The notes under the pieces are model-generated. The model saw only the letters and a program-made list of their open reading frames with translations. It did no database searches and was not told where the DNA came from. The translations under genes and the position numbers were made by a program. Below, in pieces: positions 2,474 through 17,927 of a stretch of DNA of 28,136 bases (position 1 is its first letter; the number at the start of each line of letters is the position of its first letter). The stretch comes from a virus: positions 1 to 28,136 of IMG/VR virus record IMGVR_UViG_3300022929_000153, one strand, 5' to 3'.

Positions 2474-4207
2474 TTAAACCGTCCATATTTTAAGTTCGTC
2501 TTTTTTACCTTTTACTTTTATAGGTTTTAGAGACTTTAACACAAGTTTGCAATTTTTTGCAGTTTCTTGCCCAACTAAAATATCCACACCAACTTCTTTG
2601 GTCGCCGACTCTAACCTTGCGGCTGTATTAACTGGATCACCAATTGCTGAATAATCAAACCTAGTATCGGATCCCATATTTCCAATTACTGCGTAACCAG
2701 AGTTCACACCGATACCAATTTCAACGCCAAGATTCGCCATTTTTATTTTGTCTTGAATTTCTTTTGCACAAAGCACTGCTGCTTGTTCGTGTCCAGGCAT
2801 ATCCAAGGGTGCGTTAAATATAGCCATCATTGCGTCTCCTATATATTTATCAACCATGCCATCATAAAATTTCACTGTATCGGCTTGTATCGTCAAAGTT
2901 TTGTTCATAATCTCGGTAACTTCTTCTGGTGACAATTTTTCACTTAATGATGTAAAGCCACGAAGATCTGTAAATAAAAACGTACAATATTTTTTCTCTC
3001 CACCAAGTTTTAGTAGATCTGGATTATCCTGGAGCTGCTTAACTTGTCTTGGATCCAGATAATGTTCAAATTGTTTTTTGATTTGTTGACGTAATAAATA
3101 CTCTTTTCTAAACCGTAAATAGAAAATAACGCTGCCAATGACAAATTCGGACACTAAAGTCCATGAAAAGTCCAATAAAATGCCTTTTTGGATGCTAAAA
3201 ACGCCTAAGAAGCCCGTCAAGGCCATGAAAATTAGTCCGAAGGCCAATGCCTTGGTCATAGTGAGATATGCGCATACAAGCGAAACTGTGAGCACAAAAA
3301 TCGCGAAAATCAAAATTTCGGCCGCTAAAGCCCAATCTGGAATTTTTGGAGAGTTTTCAATCAAAATTGACTCGGCTAAAGCTGCTTGAACTTTATGTGG
3401 ACCAAGTAATCCAACAGGAGTTGCAACTTGTGGCATGACTCCAGGAGCGTCAACCGATATAAATACAAATTTATTTTCTACTTCCATATCTTGCAAATTA
3501 GTTTCTGGTGTTTTTACCCAAGAGATCCATTTGCGGCCAAGACGATCTACATCTACAGGAGGTAGTCCCTGGACAGTAATTTGTTGCATGCCGTTTTCGT
3601 CACCTTTGATGATGTAAGTTTTAGATCCTGCCAAAACTTTCAATACTTCGGTTCCATAAGATGAAACAAAACCATCTGGAGTTTGCATTAATAAAGGTAT
3701 GCGCCTTACAAGATTGTCTATTTCGGTGGGAGCCGATGACAAGCCTTGAGGGATTAGGGTATATTTGTGGCTGTTCTGGACAACTCCCTTAGACATAATA
3801 CCACTAATATTTTCACCAAGTAAAACAGTACCACTGGTAGATGGATAAATACCGTTATCGTATTCAAACATTGCTAGAACGCTGGGACTATAACTGAGTG
3901 CTTCTAAAAACATATCATCGCCACCGAATCTATCTGCTTGTGGAAAAGATACTACCCAGCCAACACCCATAGCTCCTTTGTTTAAAAGATCAACATGTAT
4001 TTGTGCTAGCTCCTGGCGAGGAAAGGGCCAACCACCAGATTTTTGTATGTCTTCCTGGGTTATGTTAAGAATGACAAAATTACCGCTTGGCTTATATTCT
4101 TTTACAAAGGTATCAAAGGTTTGTAGTTTTAAGATCTGTAAAGGATATAACTGAAACAACAGTGGCAGCGCTAGTAATATAAAAGTTGTGAATATTGTTT
4201 TTTTCAT
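2474..4207 (-). CDS. CHASE2-domain class III adenylate cyclase
   Basis: Membrane-bound nucleotide cyclase predicted to make cAMP from ATP. 577 residues: N-terminal signal-anchor (4-24); periplasmic CHASE2 sensor (about 28-285) with the GGWPFPR motif at 58-64; three membrane helices (about 290-363); linker; C-terminal cyclase domain (about 405-577). All active-site residues are visible: metal Asp414 (FTDLRGFT) and Asp458 (YIGDAMMAIF); adenine-selecting Lys454 and Asp518 (FDYSAIG); transition-state Asn527 and Arg531 (VNTAARLES). The Lys/Asp pair argues for ATP rather than GTP. The ATG overlaps the FecR gene stop by 4 bases. FecR next to CHASE2-cyclase is a familiar bacterial pairing; inside a phage lysis block it is unusual. 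No frameshift or missing residue is seen. Confidence 0.93.
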   Translation of the reverse strand: MKKTIFTTFILLALPLLFQLYPLQILKLQTFDTFVKEYKPSGNFVILNITQEDIQKSGGWPFPRQELAQIHVDLLNKGAMGVGWVVSFPQADRFGGDDMFLEALSYSPSVLAMFEYDNGIYPSTSGTVLLGENISGIMSKGVVQNSHKYTLIPQGLSSAPTEIDNLVRRIPLLMQTPDGFVSSYGTEVLKVLAGSKTYIIKGDENGMQQITVQGLPPVDVDRLGRKWISWVKTPETNLQDMEVENKFVFISVDAPGVMPQVATPVGLLGPHKVQAALAESILIENSPKIPDWALAAEILIFAIFVLTVSLVCAYLTMTKALAFGLIFMALTGFLGVFSIQKGILLDFSWTLVSEFVIGSVIFYLRFRKEYLLRQQIKKQFEHYLDPRQVKQLQDNPDLLKLGGEKKYCTFLFTDLRGFTSLSEKLSPEEVTEIMNKTLTIQADTVKFYDGMVDKYIGDAMMAIFNAPLDMPGHEQAAVLCAKEIQDKIKMANLGVEIGIGVNSGYAVIGNMGSDTRFDYSAIGDPVNTAARLESATKEVGVDILVGQETAKNCKLVLKSLKPIKVKGKKDELKIWTV

Positions 4208-5307
4208 CCAGAAGATTGCCTTATAGTAATAGTAGAGGTTGAGGCTCCGTTAATTTGAACAGTTTTTGATACACCGTCTTGAATAAATATAACCGTGTAA
4301 GAATTATCGCCGTTGACAATGACCTGCGCGTTTTGATTTACCAAACGCATAAGTTTTACTTGAGATCCTTGAATCAGTGTGGTGATTTGTGTTTCTGGAT
4401 CTTGGCCTATATTAGTTCCAGATACTTGTATACCACTTGAAAAATTAGTTAAATTGTCTTCTTCTTTAGCTATACTAAGTTCATCTAAAACGTCTAAAAG
4501 ATCTTCTAAAAAATCTACACTTAATAGATCTATATCCAGTTCATCAAAAGATATATCTTCATCTTCTTGCAAAAAATCCTCGGCTAACAAATCAACATCA
4601 AGCTCAGTAAATTCCAGGTAGTCGGCTTGTTGTGTTTGTTCTTCTTTTTGGTTAGTAAGATCTTCTTTTGGCGGTGATACAATCAACATGTTATCAATAA
4701 AATCTAAAGTTATATCTAAAGTGACAGCTTTACTTGGTGGGTTTTCATAAACCGATGTAGTAGTTGCCTGGTAAGGTTTATTAAGTACGGTTTGGCCCAT
4801 GGCAGTTTGTACTACTATTTCACCGCTTGCATCACCAAATTCATCTGGTAAAAGTATGATCAAACTTTTACCCGTTTCGTCAACCGTACAAACAAAATCG
4901 GTGCCCTGGACAAAAATTTGTGAAGTAGGTGTTGAGAGGGTTATATTTTTTTTGTTAAGTTTGTTGGCATTACCACTAATAAACCTTATGGTACCGCTTG
5001 CAAATTGCAGTGCCATTTTTGACTTATCGGGATTTGGATCATACACATATTCGTTGATCAGAAGCTCAGAGTGTTCGGTGAGCTTTACAGTAGATTCGTC
5101 TAAAAAAGTTATAGCTATTCGGCCAGATGCTGTCTCAACATTATCTAAAGAATTTATGTCAAAATCTAATTCTGCATTATAAGGTTGATCTCTTACTACC
5201 CTACCAAAGCCTTGTAACTCTGTTATGTCTCCAATCGTATCAGCATGTAGTGGTTGTGCCACCATCACTTTGCACAACACAAATATTGCTGTTTGACGTA
5301 TTCGCAA
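4204..5307 (-). CDS. FecR-domain periplasmic protein with acidic repeat tail
   Basis: Exported protein with a FecR domain, probably acting in the periplasm as ligand or partner of the CHASE2 sensor encoded next. After the signal peptide (ending PLHA before DTIG) the FecR core shows DNVETASGRIAITFLDES, ALQFASGTIRFISG and LSTPTSQIFVQGTDF, all family-typical. The second half is acidic with an internal repeat (ELDVDLLAEDFL, then ELDIDLLSVDFLEDLLDVLDEL), and the C-terminus is beta-rich. The start is uncertain: an ATG at 5373 gives an unusually long leader and a 134-base overlap with the curlin gene; TTG at 5307 gives a normal 22-residue signal peptide (chosen); ATG at 5265 leaves almost none. The stop overlaps the cyclase ATG by 4 bases. 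Confidence 0.85.
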   Translation of the reverse strand: MRIRQTAIFVLCKVMVAQPLHADTIGDITELQGFGRVVRDQPYNAELDFDINSLDNVETASGRIAITFLDESTVKLTEHSELLINEYVYDPNPDKSKMALQFASGTIRFISGNANKLNKKNITLSTPTSQIFVQGTDFVCTVDETGKSLIILLPDEFGDASGEIVVQTAMGQTVLNKPYQATTTSVYENPPSKAVTLDITLDFIDNMLIVSPPKEDLTNQKEEQTQQADYLEFTELDVDLLAEDFLQEDEDISFDELDIDLLSVDFLEDLLDVLDELSIAKEEDNLTNFSSGIQVSGTNIGQDPETQITTLIQGSQVKLMRLVNQNAQVIVNGDNSYTVIFIQDGVSKTVQINGASTSTITIRQSSG

Positions 5308-5965
5308 TAATAGAGAGCCAATCGCGCGCCAAAGTTGACGACTGTATAATATTAAATGTGTTGCTGCTTCCATCTAAATCTAAATTGAAATAGCCAGAAT
5401 CAGAGGCTGTGGTGCCAGAGTAACCGCTGGCTGTAAAATTAATGGTGTTACTGCTACCGTTGACATCCATATAGTTTACAGCGTTTTCGTAATCAATATC
5501 AAAATCAAACTCGTTTGAGTCACCAGTTATGATCCAATCTAGATTAAGATATGAAGTGTCGGCATCTTCTGCTAATTTAATATCAGCCTCGTTGCTAGAT
5601 CCCGTTACATCAATATTAAGATCTATATAATCAGCTGTAATCAAACCAGTTGAGTTCAACAATAGATCCCAGACATTACTATCACCCTCAAACTCAAAAA
5701 AACCAGTAAAGTTTCCGCCGTCAATAGCGTCCGATCTAAAAATATTTGAAGATCCAATTTGGTTTATATCTAGTGTCATAGATGCACCATCAAGATCTAA
5801 AGCGGTCATTGTTCCAGACACTGCTGAGGTTCCGCCGATAAGGTTGGAGCTGCCGAGCTGTTCAAGATCAATGCTAGCATTAGAGCCGCTTTGATCAACA
5901 TAAATTTCGTTATCAGCCAGGACTGATAAACTAAAGAGCAAAGAAATGAGGTACCTATTCACCAT
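5240..5965 (-). CDS. Curlin-repeat (CsgA/B-like) secreted protein
   Basis: Predicted amyloid-like fibre subunit or adhesin exported through the CsgG-type pore encoded just upstream. 241 residues with a clear signal peptide (cleavage after SLSVLA). The first repeat, VDQSGSNASIDLEQLGSSN, fits the curlin pattern Q-x(3)-N-x(6)-Q-x(4)-N. Further strand-turn-strand units centre on GSSN or GDSN (about eight: QIGSSNIF, EGDSNVW, TGSSNEAD, TGDSNEFD, NGSSNTIN, DGSSNTFN, TSNSNICV); the Gln positions decay after the second unit. A pair of Cys (ICVVQS and the final TTC) lies at the end. ATG at 5965 overlaps csgG by 11 bases. It could alternatively be a non-amyloid beta-solenoid, but context favours a curli substrate. 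Confidence 0.8.
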   Translation of the reverse strand: MVNRYLISLLFSLSVLADNEIYVDQSGSNASIDLEQLGSSNLIGGTSAVSGTMTALDLDGASMTLDINQIGSSNIFRSDAIDGGNFTGFFEFEGDSNVWDLLLNSTGLITADYIDLNIDVTGSSNEADIKLAEDADTSYLNLDWIITGDSNEFDFDIDYENAVNYMDVNGSSNTINFTASGYSGTTASDSGYFNLDLDGSSNTFNIIQSSTLARDWLSIIANTSNSNICVVQSDGGTTTTC

Positions 5966-6806
5966 AGTATTTCCAATAATTTCGCTCGCGACCTTGTTTA
6001 ATTATATCTACAATACCAATTTCTATGGCGCTTTGCAAAGCGATCGACTTGCTTTCATTCATAGCATTTCCTGTCTCTAATTCTACTAGCTCAGTGTCGT
6101 TTGCAATAAAACGGAATACGTCATTAGAAAGTCCAACCGATAACAAAGTTTTAGTCGTTAAGTTCTCTAACAATATTTCACCCGTGCTAACCGATACAAC
6201 TCGTATTGCAACCAATACTTTGTCTTCTCTGTATTGCTTACTAGTTCCTATACCGAGGTACCTGGCACCTGCTCCGCCTGTAAGCAAATTAGTGTTGTAA
6301 TCAATAATGCCGCCTTCAATAATTAGACCAGCAAAAAGCAAAGGTAGTTGCTCAGATTTTTCGTCGAACTTTTCTCTGGTTGATCTTATAATCTGTCTTT
6401 CTTTAGTTATGTGATCTATACCGACTCTCTCAACTACACGAAAAAACCCAGATTGTTTTAGGGCACGAATTAGATAAGCCTCTGGAGCTTGAGTCATAGC
6501 TGTACTAAAACTGGCATATCCGTCTATTGATTTTCTTTGGCCTGTATAATCACCAAATTTATAAACAGCCACAATCGGTTGTACTTTAGCCAGGGGTACG
6601 TTTTGTATTTCTTCGGTTATAGGTTGATTATTAAAAGCGTCTTCGGAAAAACATTTTGCTTTCCCGATAACTGTAGCTAGGTCTTTATAGTCTTCTTCTG
6701 GATTAAATATACAAGGAGACACACGTTCATAATGTGTCCAGTTTGCACAACTAGCCACCAAAGCCAAAGTCGCCAATAGGAATAGTGATCTCGGTAGTTG
6801 TTTCAT
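5955..6806 (-). CDS. csgG: CsgG-like curli secretion pore lipoprotein
   Basis: Outer-membrane lipoprotein expected to form the nonameric curli export channel. 283 residues against 277 in E. coli. Lipobox LVASC puts the acylated Cys at residue 20. Recognisable family blocks in order: VAVYKFGDYTGQRK, FSTAMTQAPEAYLIRALK, FFRVVERVGIDHITKERQII, GLIIEGGIIDYNTN, TGGAGARYLGIGTSKQYRED, VAIRVVSVSTGEILLENLTT, KTLLSVGLSNDVFRFI, LQSAIEIGIVDIIKQG. In the constriction loop the Phe of FSTA is kept, while the preceding Asn of E. coli is Ser, with a one-residue insertion. Residues about 25-70 with extra Cys are not in E. coli CsgG. ATG 6806 lies 56 bases inside csgF without a clear ribosome site, so translation is probably coupled. 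Confidence 0.95.
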   Translation of the reverse strand: MKQLPRSLFLLATLALVASCANWTHYERVSPCIFNPEEDYKDLATVIGKAKCFSEDAFNNQPITEEIQNVPLAKVQPIVAVYKFGDYTGQRKSIDGYASFSTAMTQAPEAYLIRALKQSGFFRVVERVGIDHITKERQIIRSTREKFDEKSEQLPLLFAGLIIEGGIIDYNTNLLTGGAGARYLGIGTSKQYREDKVLVAIRVVSVSTGEILLENLTTKTLLSVGLSNDVFRFIANDTELVELETGNAMNESKSIALQSAIEIGIVDIIKQGRERNYWKYYGE

Positions 6807-7272
6807 CTAAAGTATTATAAATGGTTAAAGTAATATATGTCCCATCACTGGTCCAACTTATAATATTATCAAAGAGCTCAAAAGATCCTGTTTCTTCTGG
6901 ATTTTCACCAAATAGCTGATCAACTATTTGTCTTGATATTTGCGCAAATATTCTGGACTCAAGGTTTTTAGTAAACCTAGAAACGACTGAGTTTTCTTCG
7001 TCTCTTTTTCTTTGGTCTTCCAAGGCTTTCAAGTCTGCTCGGAGCTGTTCTTTACGCGTATACTCTTGTGATTCTACAGTCAAATAATGTGAGCTGGTGC
7101 CAATCCCAGAAAATGAAGGTGATTTAAAATGAAACTTGATTTCGTCAGCTTTTAAGTTTTCTACAAAAATACCGATAATTAAAATTATGCCAATAAGCAT
7201 TATTGACCATAGCACTTTATCTTTTTCGCGTTGTTCTTTTGCTAATTGTCTTTTAGTCTTTTCTTTGATCAT
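6751..7272 (-). CDS. csgF: CsgF-like curli assembly protein
   Basis: Periplasmic/surface factor that in curli systems inserts into the CsgG pore and couples export to nucleation. 173 residues. An uncleaved-looking basic N-region (about 17 residues) is followed by a hydrophobic stretch (SIMLIGIILIIGIF) and a likely cleavage after ENLKA. The mature start, DEIKFHFKSPSFSGIG, matches the CsgF N-terminal signature F-x-F-x-x-P-x-F-x-G that plugs CsgG. A central helix (QLRADLKALEDQRKRDEE) and a C-terminal beta region (ITLTIYNTLDETTTEITIP) follow the family plan. ATG 7272 has GGCGGATAG just upstream and overlaps the previous gene by 20 bases; a longer GTG start is less likely. The 3' end overlaps csgG by 56 bases. 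Being next to csgG makes the call strong. Confidence 0.85.
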   Translation of the reverse strand: MIKEKTKRQLAKEQREKDKVLWSIMLIGIILIIGIFVENLKADEIKFHFKSPSFSGIGTSSHYLTVESQEYTRKEQLRADLKALEDQRKRDEENSVVSRFTKNLESRIFAQISRQIVDQLFGENPEETGSFELFDNIISWTSDGTYITLTIYNTLDETTTEITIPIGDFGFGG

Positions 7273-7603
7273 CTCTATCCGCCTTAGCCAACCTGTCGGT
7301 GTGCATAAGTTGTGGTACACCTAATATAGTCTTAAGAAGGGTATCTTGTCTAATTATCTCGTTGTCTACAGATCTTACTCTGTCTATAAGAGCCACTAAA
7401 ATACCGTGTTGTGAATCTAGTTTTTGGCCAAGTCGTTGTTCTATTTCTGATATTTGTGCAGAAACTTTTTCATCAAGTACATCAACTTTAGTTTCCATAC
7501 CATCAATAATTTTATTGATCAGCTTCCAGATAAATAAACCTAAACCAATAGCTGCTGCTATGGGAAAACCTACTTCGTTTATGAGTTGTACCGCGGAGTC
7601 CAT
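7253..7603 (-). CDS. Membrane-anchored coiled-coil protein, holin-like candidate
   Basis: 116 residues: one N-terminal transmembrane helix (about residues 10-30, VGFPIAAAIGLGLFIWKLI) followed by a long amphipathic coiled coil (DVLDEKVSAQISEIEQRL) and a charged tail rich in Asp, Arg and Lys. Similar small proteins with a glycine/alanine-rich N-terminal helix sit near lysis genes in many phages, and some are called BhlA-type holins; that is inference here. ATG 7603 directly abuts the previous stop. It is immediately upstream of csgF, so the curli-like genes are translated from the same message. Confidence 0.6.
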   Translation of the reverse strand: MDSAVQLINEVGFPIAAAIGLGLFIWKLINKIIDGMETKVDVLDEKVSAQISEIEQRLGQKLDSQHGILVALIDRVRSVDNEIIRQDTLLKTILGVPQLMHTDRLAKADRDDQRKD

Positions 7604-13661: not shown

Positions 13662-14450
13662 CTATTCGTGAAGGCCTTGGAATTTTCTCTTGAGAATCCT
13701 CTGGACTTTGTGATACGGAAAGTCCTCGTATCCAGGGTGAGAATTTTGGATCTGAGTCGCTATCTTCCTGGCACCCAAACCTCTCTCTCTAAGCGCTTTG
13801 ATATGTCTTAGGACCGCTTGTTCCTCTGGAACTGGCACCAGCTTAGTTCTTCTTCTGCTACCAGATTCGTCGTATTCTTTTTTATAGCCAAAAGGTGTCT
13901 TGCCACCGATCGAGTAACCTTTTTCTGCGTAGACCAGCTTGCCACCGTTAAGCCTAGACATAATCATTTCTCTCTCGATCTCGGCGAACTGCGCCATGTT
14001 GGTCACTAGGTTTTGGTTAGCTATTCTGGTCATATCCATTTTTGCTGCTAGGCCCGTTTGTTCTTTTTGTTTGGGTAGAACCACTGGTATGTCTGCAAAC
14101 ATATCGCAGAAGTAAAGTGTGATCCCAGTCTCTTCCAGAGTAGGAATCATGTTGACCATTTCTAAAAAGGATCTTGCAAGCCTGTCGAGCTTGGTTGCTA
14201 CTATCACGTCGTTTGCGTCCATAGTATCGGTCAGCTCCCTGGAGCCTGGCCTTTCGAGTAATGGCTTCATGCCACTTATCCCAGCGTCGGTAAAGAACTT
14301 GTCAACTTTCCTGCCGCCAAACTTGTTGGCCACAAACTCTTCAATCGACTTCTTTTGCTCCTCTAGGGAAGATCCATCCCTGGCCTGTTGCTCAGACGAT
14401 ACTCTGATATAGCCGTAGATATTGTTTACTTGTTTTCTTGGTTCAATCAT
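13662..14450 (-). CDS. Serine recombinase (resolvase/integrase family)
   Basis: Site-specific DNA recombinase of 262 residues. N-terminal resolvase domain: YGYIRVSSEQQ (catalytic Ser18), VIVATKLDRLARS with the conserved Asp-Arg-Leu-Ala-Arg, and the IEREMIMSRLNGG helix. C-terminal part (PFGYKK, then EEQAVLRHIKALRERGLGAR) is the Recombinase/HTH DNA-binding region, shorter than in large serine integrases. It may integrate the phage genome, resolve, or invert a segment; no obvious att core or invertible segment with paired repeats is seen nearby. ATG 14450 has GGAGG six bases upstream and overlaps the preceding gene by 8. It is the last of five genes in a leftward early-type operon starting near 15.69 kb. 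Confidence 0.92.
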   Translation of the reverse strand: MIEPRKQVNNIYGYIRVSSEQQARDGSSLEEQKKSIEEFVANKFGGRKVDKFFTDAGISGMKPLLERPGSRELTDTMDANDVIVATKLDRLARSFLEMVNMIPTLEETGITLYFCDMFADIPVVLPKQKEQTGLAAKMDMTRIANQNLVTNMAQFAEIEREMIMSRLNGGKLVYAEKGYSIGGKTPFGYKKEYDESGSRRRTKLVPVPEEQAVLRHIKALRERGLGARKIATQIQNSHPGYEDFPYHKVQRILKRKFQGLHE

Positions 14451-15764: not shown

Positions 15765-15941
15765 ATGAAACTTGATTTTAATCTTAAGAAACCAAATACA
15801 ACAACGGTTCAGTTTAGAATTGATCCAGATACTAAAAGACAGATGAACGCACTAAAAAAACACTACGGTGTGCGTACGGGCCAGCTGATCAAAAAAATGA
15901 TCCAGGTATCCTTTTCAGCTGTAGAAGGAGAAATAAAATGA
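15765..15941 (+). CDS. Ribbon-helix-helix DNA-binding protein
   Basis: 58 residues. A strand TTVQFRIDPDTKRQM followed by two helices (NALKKHYGVRTGQLIKKMI) matches the MetJ/Arc ribbon-helix-helix fold, which binds operators as dimers. ATG 15765 follows ACGGAGTAATT. First gene after the divergent promoter, so the natural candidate to repress one or both promoters at 15.69-15.74 kb. Its stop overlaps the next ATG (ATGA). Confidence 0.75.
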   Translation: MKLDFNLKKPNTTTVQFRIDPDTKRQMNALKKHYGVRTGQLIKKMIQVSFSAVEGEIK

Positions 15942-16156
15942 GTGAGCCTAAACATGTAAAGAACTGGTTGTATCCAGTAATGAAAGAAATATTTATGAAG
16001 TTTCTTGTCAACAAACACAATAAGCCGTACAAGGATATTGCGATCTCAGAAATGACTGAATCCGAAATCGAGCTTTGGCAGCAAGTCGAGGCCATGAACG
16101 GGACTAAGGTTGGAGTCATTTTTAAAACAGATCCAGAGAAGAGGGTGTTGCATTGA
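15938..16156 (+). CDS. Small protein of unknown function
   Basis: 72 residues, helical N-terminus (HVKNWLYPVMKEIFMKFLV), then TESEIELWQQVEAMNG. No family recognised. Strong ribosome site GAAGGAGAAATAAA before the ATG at 15938, coupled to the RHH gene by ATGA overlap. Confidence 0.65.
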   Translation: MSEPKHVKNWLYPVMKEIFMKFLVNKHNKPYKDIAISEMTESEIELWQQVEAMNGTKVGVIFKTDPEKRVLH

Positions 16157-16392
16157 TAAAAGAGGTTGAGCAAATAAAAATGCGTAAAGATCTTCAACAC
16201 TTAAAAAATAACTTTGGTTTTAGTAATGTTTCATTAGCAAAAATTTTTGGTTGTGGTGAAAAAATAATTAGAGACTTCACTAGCTCAGAAACAAAATTTT
16301 TGAGCGATAGATCTTTTAATATTATTTACACAAAACTCCAGGATTTAAAAAAAGATATAAAACAAGCTGAGGAGTATGTGCCAAATGACTGA
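16153..16392 (+). CDS. Helix-turn-helix-like small protein
   Basis: 79 residues from a TTG at 16153 that overlaps the previous stop as TTGA, with GAGGGTG five bases upstream; an ATG at 16180 would give 70 residues. The segment LQHLKNNFGFSNVSLAKIFG followed by CGEKIIRDFTS resembles an HTH of the Xre/Cro type (V-S-L-A-K-I-F-G turn). It may be a phage regulator. The rest is a basic/acidic coiled helix (LQDLKKDIKQAEEY). Confidence 0.6.
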   Translation: MIKEVEQIKMRKDLQHLKNNFGFSNVSLAKIFGCGEKIIRDFTSSETKFLSDRSFNIIYTKLQDLKKDIKQAEEYVPND

Positions 16393-16606
16393 GGACCATT
16401 CCAAAGAAAAGTTTGCAGCTGACATAACTAAACTTATCATAATGTTTATGAAACATATTACAGCTGTAAAAAATCTGGAAGGTTATTATTTATCAAACAA
16501 GTCAGCAATCAACCAGGTAAAAAAAATTGACCAGGACAAACACGATGAATTGATCCAGGCATTTAAAAATAAAAAAGCAGAAATATTGGAGAAAGAAAAT
16601 GGATAG
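16385..16606 (+). CDS. Small helical protein, unknown
   Basis: 73 residues, helical and charged (FAADITKLIIMFMKHITAVK, KKIDQDKHDELIQAFKNKKA). Start chosen at ATG 16385 because GAGGAG lies about 10 bases upstream; an ATG at 16376 is almost on top of that site. Overlaps its neighbours by 8 bases on each side. No family recognised. Confidence 0.6.
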   Translation: MTEDHSKEKFAADITKLIIMFMKHITAVKNLEGYYLSNKSAINQVKKIDQDKHDELIQAFKNKKAEILEKENG

Positions 16607-16745
16607 GAGAACACAAACAAGTATGCGTTTAAAAACAGATACCTTAGAAAAGTTAAAGTGTTTAAAAAAAGAAAAAAAATTATCTATGGCCAGAGTTCTG
16701 GCTATGATTGTTGATTATTATACGGAGAAAAAAAATGAAACTTAA
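16599..16745 (+). CDS. Second small ribbon-helix-helix-type protein
   Basis: 48 residues: strand RRTQTSMRLKTDTLEKLKCL then helix KKEKKLSMARVLAMIVDYY, the Arc-like beta-alpha-alpha pattern. ATG 16599 overlaps the previous stop by 8 bases; TTGGAGAAAGAAA supplies the ribosome site. Below usual ORF cut-offs but its frame, ribosome site and fold agree. Overlaps the next gene by 11 bases. Confidence 0.6.
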   Translation: MDRRTQTSMRLKTDTLEKLKCLKKEKKLSMARVLAMIVDYYTEKKNET

Positions 16746-16932
16746 TTTACCAAAAAAAAATAGTCTTACAGAAAATTTAAGTGTAAGAGTTAGTCCAAAA
16801 ACAAAGAAAAATTTTACTGAAATTTTATTGTTTTATTCACAAGAAACAGATCTTAAAGTAACAAGCGCTGAGGTCATAAAGCAACTTATTAATTTACATC
16901 ATCAAGAATTATTTGGAGAAAGAAAATGCTAA
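16735..16932 (+). CDS. Third ribbon-helix-helix-type protein
   Basis: 65 residues. Strand LTENLSVRVSPKTKKNFTEI and helices (LLFYSQETDLKVTSAEVIKQ then LINLHHQ) fit RHH. ATG 16735 preceded by ACGGAGAAAAAA. The N-terminal MKLNLPKKN resembles MKLDFNLKKPN of the first RHH protein in this operon, suggesting an old duplication. Adjacent tandem RHH genes could form hetero-oligomers; inference. Confidence 0.65.
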   Translation: MKLNLPKKNSLTENLSVRVSPKTKKNFTEILLFYSQETDLKVTSAEVIKQLINLHHQELFGERKC

Positions 16933-17087
16933 AACTACTTAGAAGACTAGATAGATTTCTGGACAGACACTGGAGATCTACTCACGACAAAATTGTTGCA
17001 TTATTTGACAGACGCAAGGATCCAGTGGATATTGATTGGTTGAACATGCACAACGATATGGCGGAGAGAAAAAATGACAATAAATAA
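16926..17087 (+). CDS. Small basic protein, unknown
   Basis: 53 residues, Arg/Asp-rich (MLKLLRRLDRFLDRHWRS, then DKIVALFDRRKDPVDIDWL). GGAGAAAGAAA before the ATG at 16926; overlaps neighbours by 7 and 14 bases. No family recognised. Tight packing supports it. Confidence 0.55.
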   Translation: MLKLLRRLDRFLDRHWRSTHDKIVALFDRRKDPVDIDWLNMHNDMAERKNDNK

Positions 17088-17295
17088 GCATGAACTAGAG
17101 ATTGCGCGGGTTGCCAGGCGATTTCGCGAAATTTGTAACGAGCACATTATGGAACTAGAAGATCAGATGCCCAGGGCAAACAATCCCTTGGAGCGTGATG
17201 ATCTGGAAAAACAAATTGATGCTATGCACGAACTAGCCGACCAGGCTAATTCCAGAGCAAAAGCAATGATCGAGGATTATTATGCCAATCAATAG
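17074..17295 (+). CDS. Small helical protein, unknown
   Basis: 73 residues, almost fully helical and charged (EIARVARRFREICNEHIMEL; then ERDDLEKQIDAMHELADQAN), likely coiled coil. ATG 17074 with GCGGAGAGAAAA upstream. No family recognised. Confidence 0.65.
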   Translation: MTINKHELEIARVARRFREICNEHIMELEDQMPRANNPLERDDLEKQIDAMHELADQANSRAKAMIEDYYANQ

Positions 17296-17380
17296 AAAAA
17301 ATATACCAGCACACTTGCAGTATCTAAGCGATTCAGCTCTTAGAACATTAATAGAGCTGCATAAGCCTAGATCTATCTAA
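17282..17380 (+). CDS. Possible 32-residue protein ending the operon
   Basis: MPINRKNIPAHLQYLSDSAL followed by a short helix (RTLIELHKP). ATG 17282 overlaps the previous gene by 14 bases like other junctions here, but has no clear ribosome site (GAGGATTATT is the nearest). Its end overlaps the stop of the opposing oxygenase gene by 8 bases. Uncertain. Confidence 0.4.
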   Translation: MPINRKNIPAHLQYLSDSALRTLIELHKPRSI

Positions 17381-17927
17381 AAGGCGGGCCAGTAAACCAG
17401 GCAACGACCACATAACGGTCGCCTTTGGTTACAGGTTTGACCTGGTGCGAGATAAATGAGCTAAAAGCGACTATCTCTCCCATCTTCAAACGCGTACAAC
17501 TAGCGTTATCACTGGTACGAAAGCAGATTTCGCCGCCTTCGTATTCATCGTTTAGCATTAAAGACATACTGATCTTCCGATTGGCAGCTGTTCCCTCTGG
17601 TCCTATGTCGATATGATAGCCGTAGCCGTTACTCGGCGATTTATAGTGCAAAATTTGCGCTGTCTCGATTCCAGATATGTCGTATCTAAAATATTTATTC
17701 GCAGAAACCGCGACTCTGTTAAGGATCCTATAAAGGCGGTCCTCTTTAGCGTCAATATAGCGCACCTCAACGTCTCTTAGATCTTTATTTTTTGTTTCCG
17801 CGTTCTTGTCGTGTACCATTCCAGGCTCTGGATCCGTTTCAACCAGGTAATCTAAAAAGAGCTCTACTTCGTCTTGCGTGACAGACAGGCCAGTAACACC
17901 ATGATTAGGCATTAAATCGGCCGTCAT
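17373..17927 (-). CDS. 2OG-Fe(II) oxygenase, prolyl-hydroxylase type
   Basis: 184-residue dioxygenase of the P4H/PiuC-like group that couples 2-oxoglutarate decarboxylation to hydroxylation. Iron ligands and cosubstrate residue are visible: His105 and Asp107 in GYGYHIDIG, His161 in SSFISHQVKPV, Arg171 in KGDRYVVVAWF, the last motif being typical of the PKHD branch. The segment YEGGEICFRT is the usual strand before the second half of the motif. Substrate unknown (protein side chain or nucleic acid). ATG 17927 has GGAGG four bases upstream and overlaps the nuclease gene by 23 bases. Common in marine T4-like and other phages. Confidence 0.88.
   Translation of the reverse strand: MTADLMPNHGVTGLSVTQDEVELFLDYLVETDPEPGMVHDKNAETKNKDLRDVEVRYIDAKEDRLYRILNRVAVSANKYFRYDISGIETAQILHYKSPSNGYGYHIDIGPEGTAANRKISMSLMLNDEYEGGEICFRTSDNASCTRLKMGEIVAFSSFISHQVKPVTKGDRYVVVAWFTGPPFR

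Follow-up and report, generated by a model that had tools for sequence, protein, structure and literature searches.

The gene at positions 2474–4207 (minus strand) of a 28,136-base virus record, hereafter the window, encodes a CHASE2 receptor-type class III adenylate cyclase of 577 aa that lies inside a phage-borne curli export cassette. The window is another instance of a published phage curli/FecR/cyclase cassette and not, as the initial annotation had it, a new type of host takeover. Two features are new as far as we searched: one clade of phage cyclases, together with FecR and one or two small membrane/coiled-coil proteins, occurs with either curli or a type-I-secretion-like system, and in the window's lineage the cassette abuts the spanin, lysozyme, and terminase genes.

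Terminase, endolysin, two spanin, tail-fibre, and primase genes mark the record as a phage fragment. In the cyclase ORF, which starts with ATG, Pfam assigns residues 11–305 to CHASE2 (5.8e-23, over the cut-off) and residues 406–574 to Guanylate_cyc (PF00211; 7.1e-18, 65.3 bits against a cut-off of 21.9), the only Guanylate_cyc match in the whole record; these matches bear out the claim that this phage encodes a complete class III cyclase. An AlphaFold model built from 30 aligned sequences is confident over the full length (mean pLDDT 90.3), and fold superposition of residues 370–577 (VIA-align rows) fits the cyclase domain to P. aeruginosa CyaB (3r5g; Z 25.6, rmsd 1.5 Å, 174 residues), its near structural matches including both adenylyl and guanylyl cyclases. 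The model contains four membrane-type helices (2–18, 293–314, 317–340, and the start of 348–380) rather than the three first described, one before CHASE2 and three after; this is the layout of CHASE2 receptors and would place CHASE2 outside the cytoplasm and the cyclase domain inside. All six class III residues that had been named are indeed present: Asp414 and Asp458, which we take to be the two metal-binding residues, Lys454 and Asp518, presumably the adenine-type pair, and Asn527 and Arg531, presumably the transition-state pair. Judged by its sequence, the ORF is an apparently intact CHASE2 class III cyclase, the likely product of which would be cAMP.

The genes of the window from position 7603 down to 1 are all encoded on the minus strand, with overlaps or very short gaps between them, in the order small protein, CsgF, CsgG, curlin-like protein, FecR, cyclase, spanins, SNase-like nuclease, lysozyme, terminase. 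The first is a membrane plus coiled-coil protein of 116 aa (7253–7603; phrog_18771, 4.8e-16) in which a single hydrophobic stretch and a coiled-coil-like tail can be seen by eye; it bears a weak likeness to holin family phrog_4898 (6.8e-4) and has no kinase match in Pfam at E up to 1. CsgF, a curli export/anchoring factor (6751–7320; Pfam CsgF, 4.2e-17), and CsgG, the outer-membrane curli export pore (5955–6806; Pfam CsgG, 2.2e-45), precede a curlin-like repeat protein, the putative fibre subunit (5240–5965; Pfam Curlin_rpt, 0.0037, below the cut-off), which has seven G-(S/D)-S-N repeats (counted by script) and matches curlin-annotated genes of phages HTVC008M and Melnitz at 35% and 32%, respectively. 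The FecR-domain protein (4204–5373; 389 aa as called, start unsure; Pfam FecR, 1e-9; phrog_37870, 8.8e-64) is encoded by a gene that overlaps the curlin gene by 134 bases and the cyclase gene by 4; its model (mean pLDDT 53) is reliable only at about residues 90–225 and poor outside the FecR domain. Right behind the cyclase stop codon starts an Rz-like inner-membrane spanin (2078–2473; phrog_739, 1.1e-11), overlapped by an Rz1-like spanin (1783–2154; phrog_812, 3.8e-12) and followed by the SNase-like nuclease (1410–1790; Pfam SNase, 8.2e-13; phrog_452, 5.3e-35), the phage lysozyme, or endolysin (965–1486; Pfam Phage_lysozyme, 5.6e-51; phrog_7, 1.9e-66), and the terminase large subunit (1–897; phrog_38, 1.5e-69), which continues past the end of the record. 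On a plain reading, these genes would form one late transcript. Flanked without a break by curli export genes on its upstream side and by lysis and terminase genes on its downstream side, the cyclase has the appearance of a late gene belonging to a surface-fibre cassette.

A search of 50,697 phage records with the cyclase returned nine matches, six of them over at least 80% of its length. Two of these six are records of HTVC008M and four are records of Melnitz, and in both phages the gene is annotated as a cyclase; exactly the same six records contain the small protein. MT838110 is a further match; matches in Acinetobacter "phage" MD-2021a were dropped, the locus being bacterial housekeeping sequence (mfd, isc genes). 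The survey thus recovered the same cassette, with its genes in the same order, in named phages, and PMC9599517 (2022) describes it, FecR and curli included, so the claim of novelty does not hold. According to that paper, pelagiphage curli clusters include genes for FecR and adenylate cyclase along with one, or in some cases two, called "histidine kinase", with T8SS in nine podovirus genomes and curli genes in myoviruses as well. The curli part of the phage cluster was also reported in PMC7029224 and PMC9004378, and the three papers offer differing guesses as to why amyloid-export genes occur in free-living aquatic phages.

The window shares with the pelagiphage cassette (HTVC008M gp014–gp019; PMC9599517) the order CsgF–CsgG–curlin–FecR–(curlin)–cyclase, its curlin repeat falling below the Pfam cut-off, but lacks the second curlin gene and has the 116-aa non-kinase protein where that account places the histidine kinase(s) first. 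We file it as the same kind of cassette, the kinase gene being the difference. A phrog_18771 protein, single or doubled, stands at the published kinase position in the window and in loci L002, L003, L090, and L169, and those scanned are without a kinase domain; our guess is that the published "kinase" is this small protein. In the Melnitz curli cluster (MZ577097; PMC9004378), FecR and cyclase are likewise annotated, and the main text of that paper, in which neither the word cyclase nor the word adenylate appears, reports Melnitz cultures without visible clumping. Melnitz is a T4-like phage whose cyclase, unlike that of the window, has Ser at both 518 and 527. The terminase of the window is 62% identical to that of phage 023Pt_psg01 (MW574966, a PMC9599517 deposit); across three HTVC023P-type phages the identity ranges from 56.9 to 62.4%, and with DSL-LC04 it is 59%. 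The terminase adjoins lysis genes in the window but not in three annotated relatives.

Relatives of the cyclase occur on at least 596 virus contig stretches in IMG/VR (596 of at least 599 pattern-matched). In the 80 closest virus loci among the matches listed, every locus with enough flank contains FecR (47/47), curlin (42/42), CsgG (33/33), CsgF (31/31), and the small protein (31/31). Because these loci had been found through the cyclase, we retested conservation from the terminase and from the small protein. The terminase-anchored set of 80 loci comprised 24 with at least 6.5 kb upstream, 21 with 2.5–6.5 kb, and 35 that were too short. Cyclase, CsgG, and small protein were found together in 18 of the first 24, whereas cyclase and CsgG were absent from the other six; all six cassette-less loci retain spanin and lysozyme, and five of them lack the small protein. 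With 2.5–6.5 kb upstream, 15 of 21 loci have the cyclase and six do not. The cassette is therefore optional in this lineage, and it abuts the lysis genes. Anchoring on the small protein, 23 of 80 loci had 9 kb on both sides; all 23 contain a cyclase, accompanied by curli in 19, by a type-I-secretion-like system in two, and by neither in view in two. In the other 57 loci at least one flank is shorter than 9 kb; 14 of them have no cyclase in view, including L293, where the flanks reach 7.4 and 9.7 kb.

The contact between cassette and lysis genes bears on an idea that extends a proposal of PMC9004378, namely that the CsgG/CsgF pore and the small protein, as a pinholin or holin, take part in lysis, with the cyclase signalling or timing it. 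Direct adjacency to spanins and endolysin speaks for this, as does the weak holin match of the small protein. Yet spanins and endolysin are kept in the 6/24 loci without a cassette, and the absence of the small protein from five of those six indicates that it is not the general holin of the lineage. Elsewhere the adjacency does not hold: the HTVC008M cassette gives way to tail genes encoded on the opposite strand, and the Melnitz cassette is followed by two small hypothetical genes, then opposite-strand genes, with baseplate genes beyond. We consider a role in lysis timing improbable.

The cyclase, FecR, and the small protein also occur with a second export system. In L090, L173, L175, and L176, the genes encode in turn a protein of 1,326 aa whose FecR domain lies close to the N-terminus, a TolC-type channel, a permease-like membrane protein, an HlyD adaptor, the CHASE2 cyclase, and then two phrog_18771 proteins; tail-like and other phage-type genes are also present on these contigs. 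Their labelling as bacterial (a "Rickettsiales" MED657 MAG) was dropped in view of the phage-type genes and the position of the L090 cyclase in the phage clade, as were those of L169 ("Synechococcus" sp. CPC35 MAG), which has phage-type genes by eye and by profile, and L091, whose cyclase groups with phage cyclases. We treated all six as phage DNA mis-binned into bacterial MAGs.

Used as an IMG/VR query, the L090 cyclase retrieved 302 relatives on 303 stretches. The best 80 of these 302 include TolC or HlyD in 33 loci, curli in 7, both in 1, and neither in 41, every one of the last having less than 3 kb upstream; where at least 3 kb was available, TolC/HlyD was found in 11 of 13 loci and curli in two of 13, several loci in this set being near-copies (L183, L184, L221). 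Each of the eight type-I-type loci whose upstream flank reaches about 7 kb or more encodes a FecR-bearing substrate, although three of the eight are near-copies, and residues 9–223 of the L218 substrate match the phage FecR family phrog_37870 (8.7e-33). We take the layout of these substrates to resemble that of LapA-type adhesins with an N-terminal retention domain. The export genes match TolC (2.9e-33), HlyD (1.9e-47), and T1SS permease (6.2e-15) families, all below the NCBIfam curated cut-offs, while Pfam OEP and HlyD_3 score over theirs. The permease has 248 aa and no ATPase part, and a search by sequence found no solved relative. The phage assignment of the contigs with T1SS-like genes draws on their presence in IMG/VR and on one contig that encodes members of exonuclease, glycosyltransferase, and baseplate families; a check of eleven virus records with such genes gave no match to T4 capsid (Gp23). 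In one locus, L179, type-I-like genes precede the cyclase, and the genes that follow it, for FecR, curlin, CsgG, and CsgF, are on the opposite strand; L242, which is cut at the cyclase, has opposite-strand curli genes as in L179. No report of a phage cassette combining type I secretion with FecR was found in the limited collection of literature that we searched, and neither TolC nor HlyD nor T1SS is mentioned in the phage curli papers PMC7029224, PMC9004378, and PMC9599517. What merits follow-up is that a type-I-like system takes the place of curli beside an otherwise shared FecR/cyclase core.

In a cyclase tree of 101 rows, made by a quick method and with one short row (L300) left out, the 62 phage-labelled cyclases cluster with those of L090 and L091 in a single clade (SH-aLRT 99) that excludes the other bacterial rows, and type-I-linked cyclases are nested inside this clade beside curli-linked ones; the outer part of the tree, with its long bacterial branches, is unsure. 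The simplest reading is a single entry into phages followed by exchange of export genes.

Phage cyclases vary little at the catalytic positions. Among 83 aligned sequences, Asp414, Lys454, Asp458, and Arg531 are invariant (83/83), and Asp518 and Asn527 are each kept in 82. In a wider set, 179 of 185 distinct phage cyclases have all six residues, and both Asp518 and Asn527 are gone in the remaining six, Melnitz and five IMG/VR loci. Ser or Gly at 518 and Ser at 527 were noted in the cyclases of L003, L301, L303, L306, L322, and L329; in the six altered cyclases, activity is possibly changed or lost. Such losses, and a locus of the terminase lineage (L381) that has curli and FecR but no cyclase, are what one might cite if the cyclase were a dead or unneeded passenger, either a scaffold or sensor kept for dimerisation or a drifting cargo gene. 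Against this stand the 179 copies with every residue in place and the finding that dN is much lower than dS in each of the 12 pairs compared (e.g. 0.058/0.323 for the window and L005), so that the gene is under purifying selection; we regard the passenger explanation as very unlikely. Separately, residues about 430–505, in the middle of the catalytic domain, are mosaic, a pattern noted for the window against L005 and L007: identity to L005 falls there from 96% to 57%, and identity to L010, L013, and L047 over the same stretch is 74–87%. This pattern suggests recombination within the active-site region.

The pairing of FecR genes with CHASE2 receptor genes is common in bacteria, and examples are on record in PMC5192318, PMC5498481, and PMC9239204. 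The best 80 bacterial cyclase loci, a count in which L090 and L091 remained, include a FecR gene in 44, and in 35 it shares the strand of the cyclase and is no more than 600 bases away. A phage-built profile, used with no bacterial positive control, detected CsgG or CsgF beside the cyclase in none of the 80. When 40 of these genomes were searched with Pfam CsgG, 16 had a match, and in none of these did CsgG and a CHASE2 gene share a contig at a distance of 20 kb or less. In the same 40 genomes, FecR lies within 5 kb of 40 of 72 CHASE2 matches against 0.45 expected, a count that is biased because the genomes were chosen after the FecR result was known. Seven long bacterial FecR partners were scanned and FecR was found in all seven, with extra domains of varied kinds: von Willebrand A in one, Ig-like plus fibronectin in one, and TPR in two, one of which also has a TonB-receptor-like barrel.

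Described bacterial parallels to the window are S. meliloti SMc02177/CyaD1 (PMC5498481) and clusters of Campylobacterota (PMC9239204), where a FecR-domain gene likewise stands next to a CHASE2 cyclase gene; unlike in the window, the bacterial cyclase loci surveyed have no curli genes alongside (0/80). A Burkholderia operon (PMC5192318) also pairs a periplasmic FecR gene with a CHASE2 membrane receptor and is tied to biofilm formation, but its output is a histidine kinase/response regulator rather than cAMP, and its FecR carries LysM. FecR thus appears to be an input domain that is built into envelope proteins and would be read by CHASE2 receptors. The suggestion in the initial annotation that the neighbouring FecR protein is a natural ligand or regulator of the cyclase holds in part: FecR is adjacent and, given the 35/80 bacterial loci, a plausible periplasmic partner, but as a ligand it is only a candidate, and in S. 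meliloti the FecR gene smc02177 next to cyaD1 was dispensable for signal perception (PMC5498481).

We somewhat favour the view that the cyclase serves as signalling subunit to a surface-fibre export cassette carried by the phage. The cassette would be made late in infection, the fibre protein would leave through an outer-membrane pore of CsgG and CsgF, and periplasmic FecR may monitor the condition of the envelope or export machine. CHASE2 would read FecR and switch the cytoplasmic cyclase, and cAMP, acting via a host receptor, might tune fibre display or the state of the cell before lysis. The fibre and its export system would be the exchangeable part (curli or type-I-like), with FecR, cyclase, and small protein constant. 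The synthesis of cAMP, the FecR–CHASE2 contact, and the target of cAMP are steps that we infer. In favour of this view we count the conserved gene order, the exchange of export systems, the single phage clade of cyclases, the bacterial pairing with FecR, the Burkholderia biofilm operon, and the kept catalytic residues with purifying selection. Speaking against it are the six phage cyclases without Asp518 and Asn527, the small-protein loci with no cyclase in view, L381, the sub-threshold curlin match, and the absence of clumping in Melnitz cultures.

No cNMP-binding domain was found in 30 phage records, which are mostly fragments, HTVC008M and Melnitz being complete; cAMP, if made, would therefore act through the host. 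This null result and the intact catalytic residues also fit host takeover, in which phage cAMP would reprogram host metabolism via a CRP-type regulator of the host, the curli genes being mere neighbours. Takeover nevertheless accords poorly with a cyclase that is accompanied in different phage groups by FecR, the small protein, and an export system, that has no full-length stand-alone relative among named phage records, and that in the window lies within a run of curli export, spanin, endolysin, and terminase genes, which suggests late expression. We think it unlikely.

A more general version of the signalling-subunit reading, which we advance tentatively and think less probable than its narrower form, is that the FecR, CHASE2-cyclase, and small-protein core is an exchangeable module that would report the state of whichever surface fibre the host exports, be it curli via CsgG/CsgF or a large adhesin-like protein via the type-I-like pump, where FecR is fused to the exported protein; coupling export to cAMP, it would amount to a virus-run secretion checkpoint. 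If one signalling core does serve two unrelated export systems, then the function to look for is regulated surface-fibre display and not one specific to curli or lysis.

Elsewhere in the window, no tRNA or Rfam family was found. A serine recombinase/integrase-type gene lies at 13662–14450; the terminase of this fragment resembles those of marine podoviruses. Between opposite-strand genes, a run of small plus-strand ORFs of 32–79 aa, with no Rfam match, occupies 15765–17380, and a 2OG-Fe(II) oxygenase-type gene (phrog_61, 9.1e-26) lies at 17373–17927.
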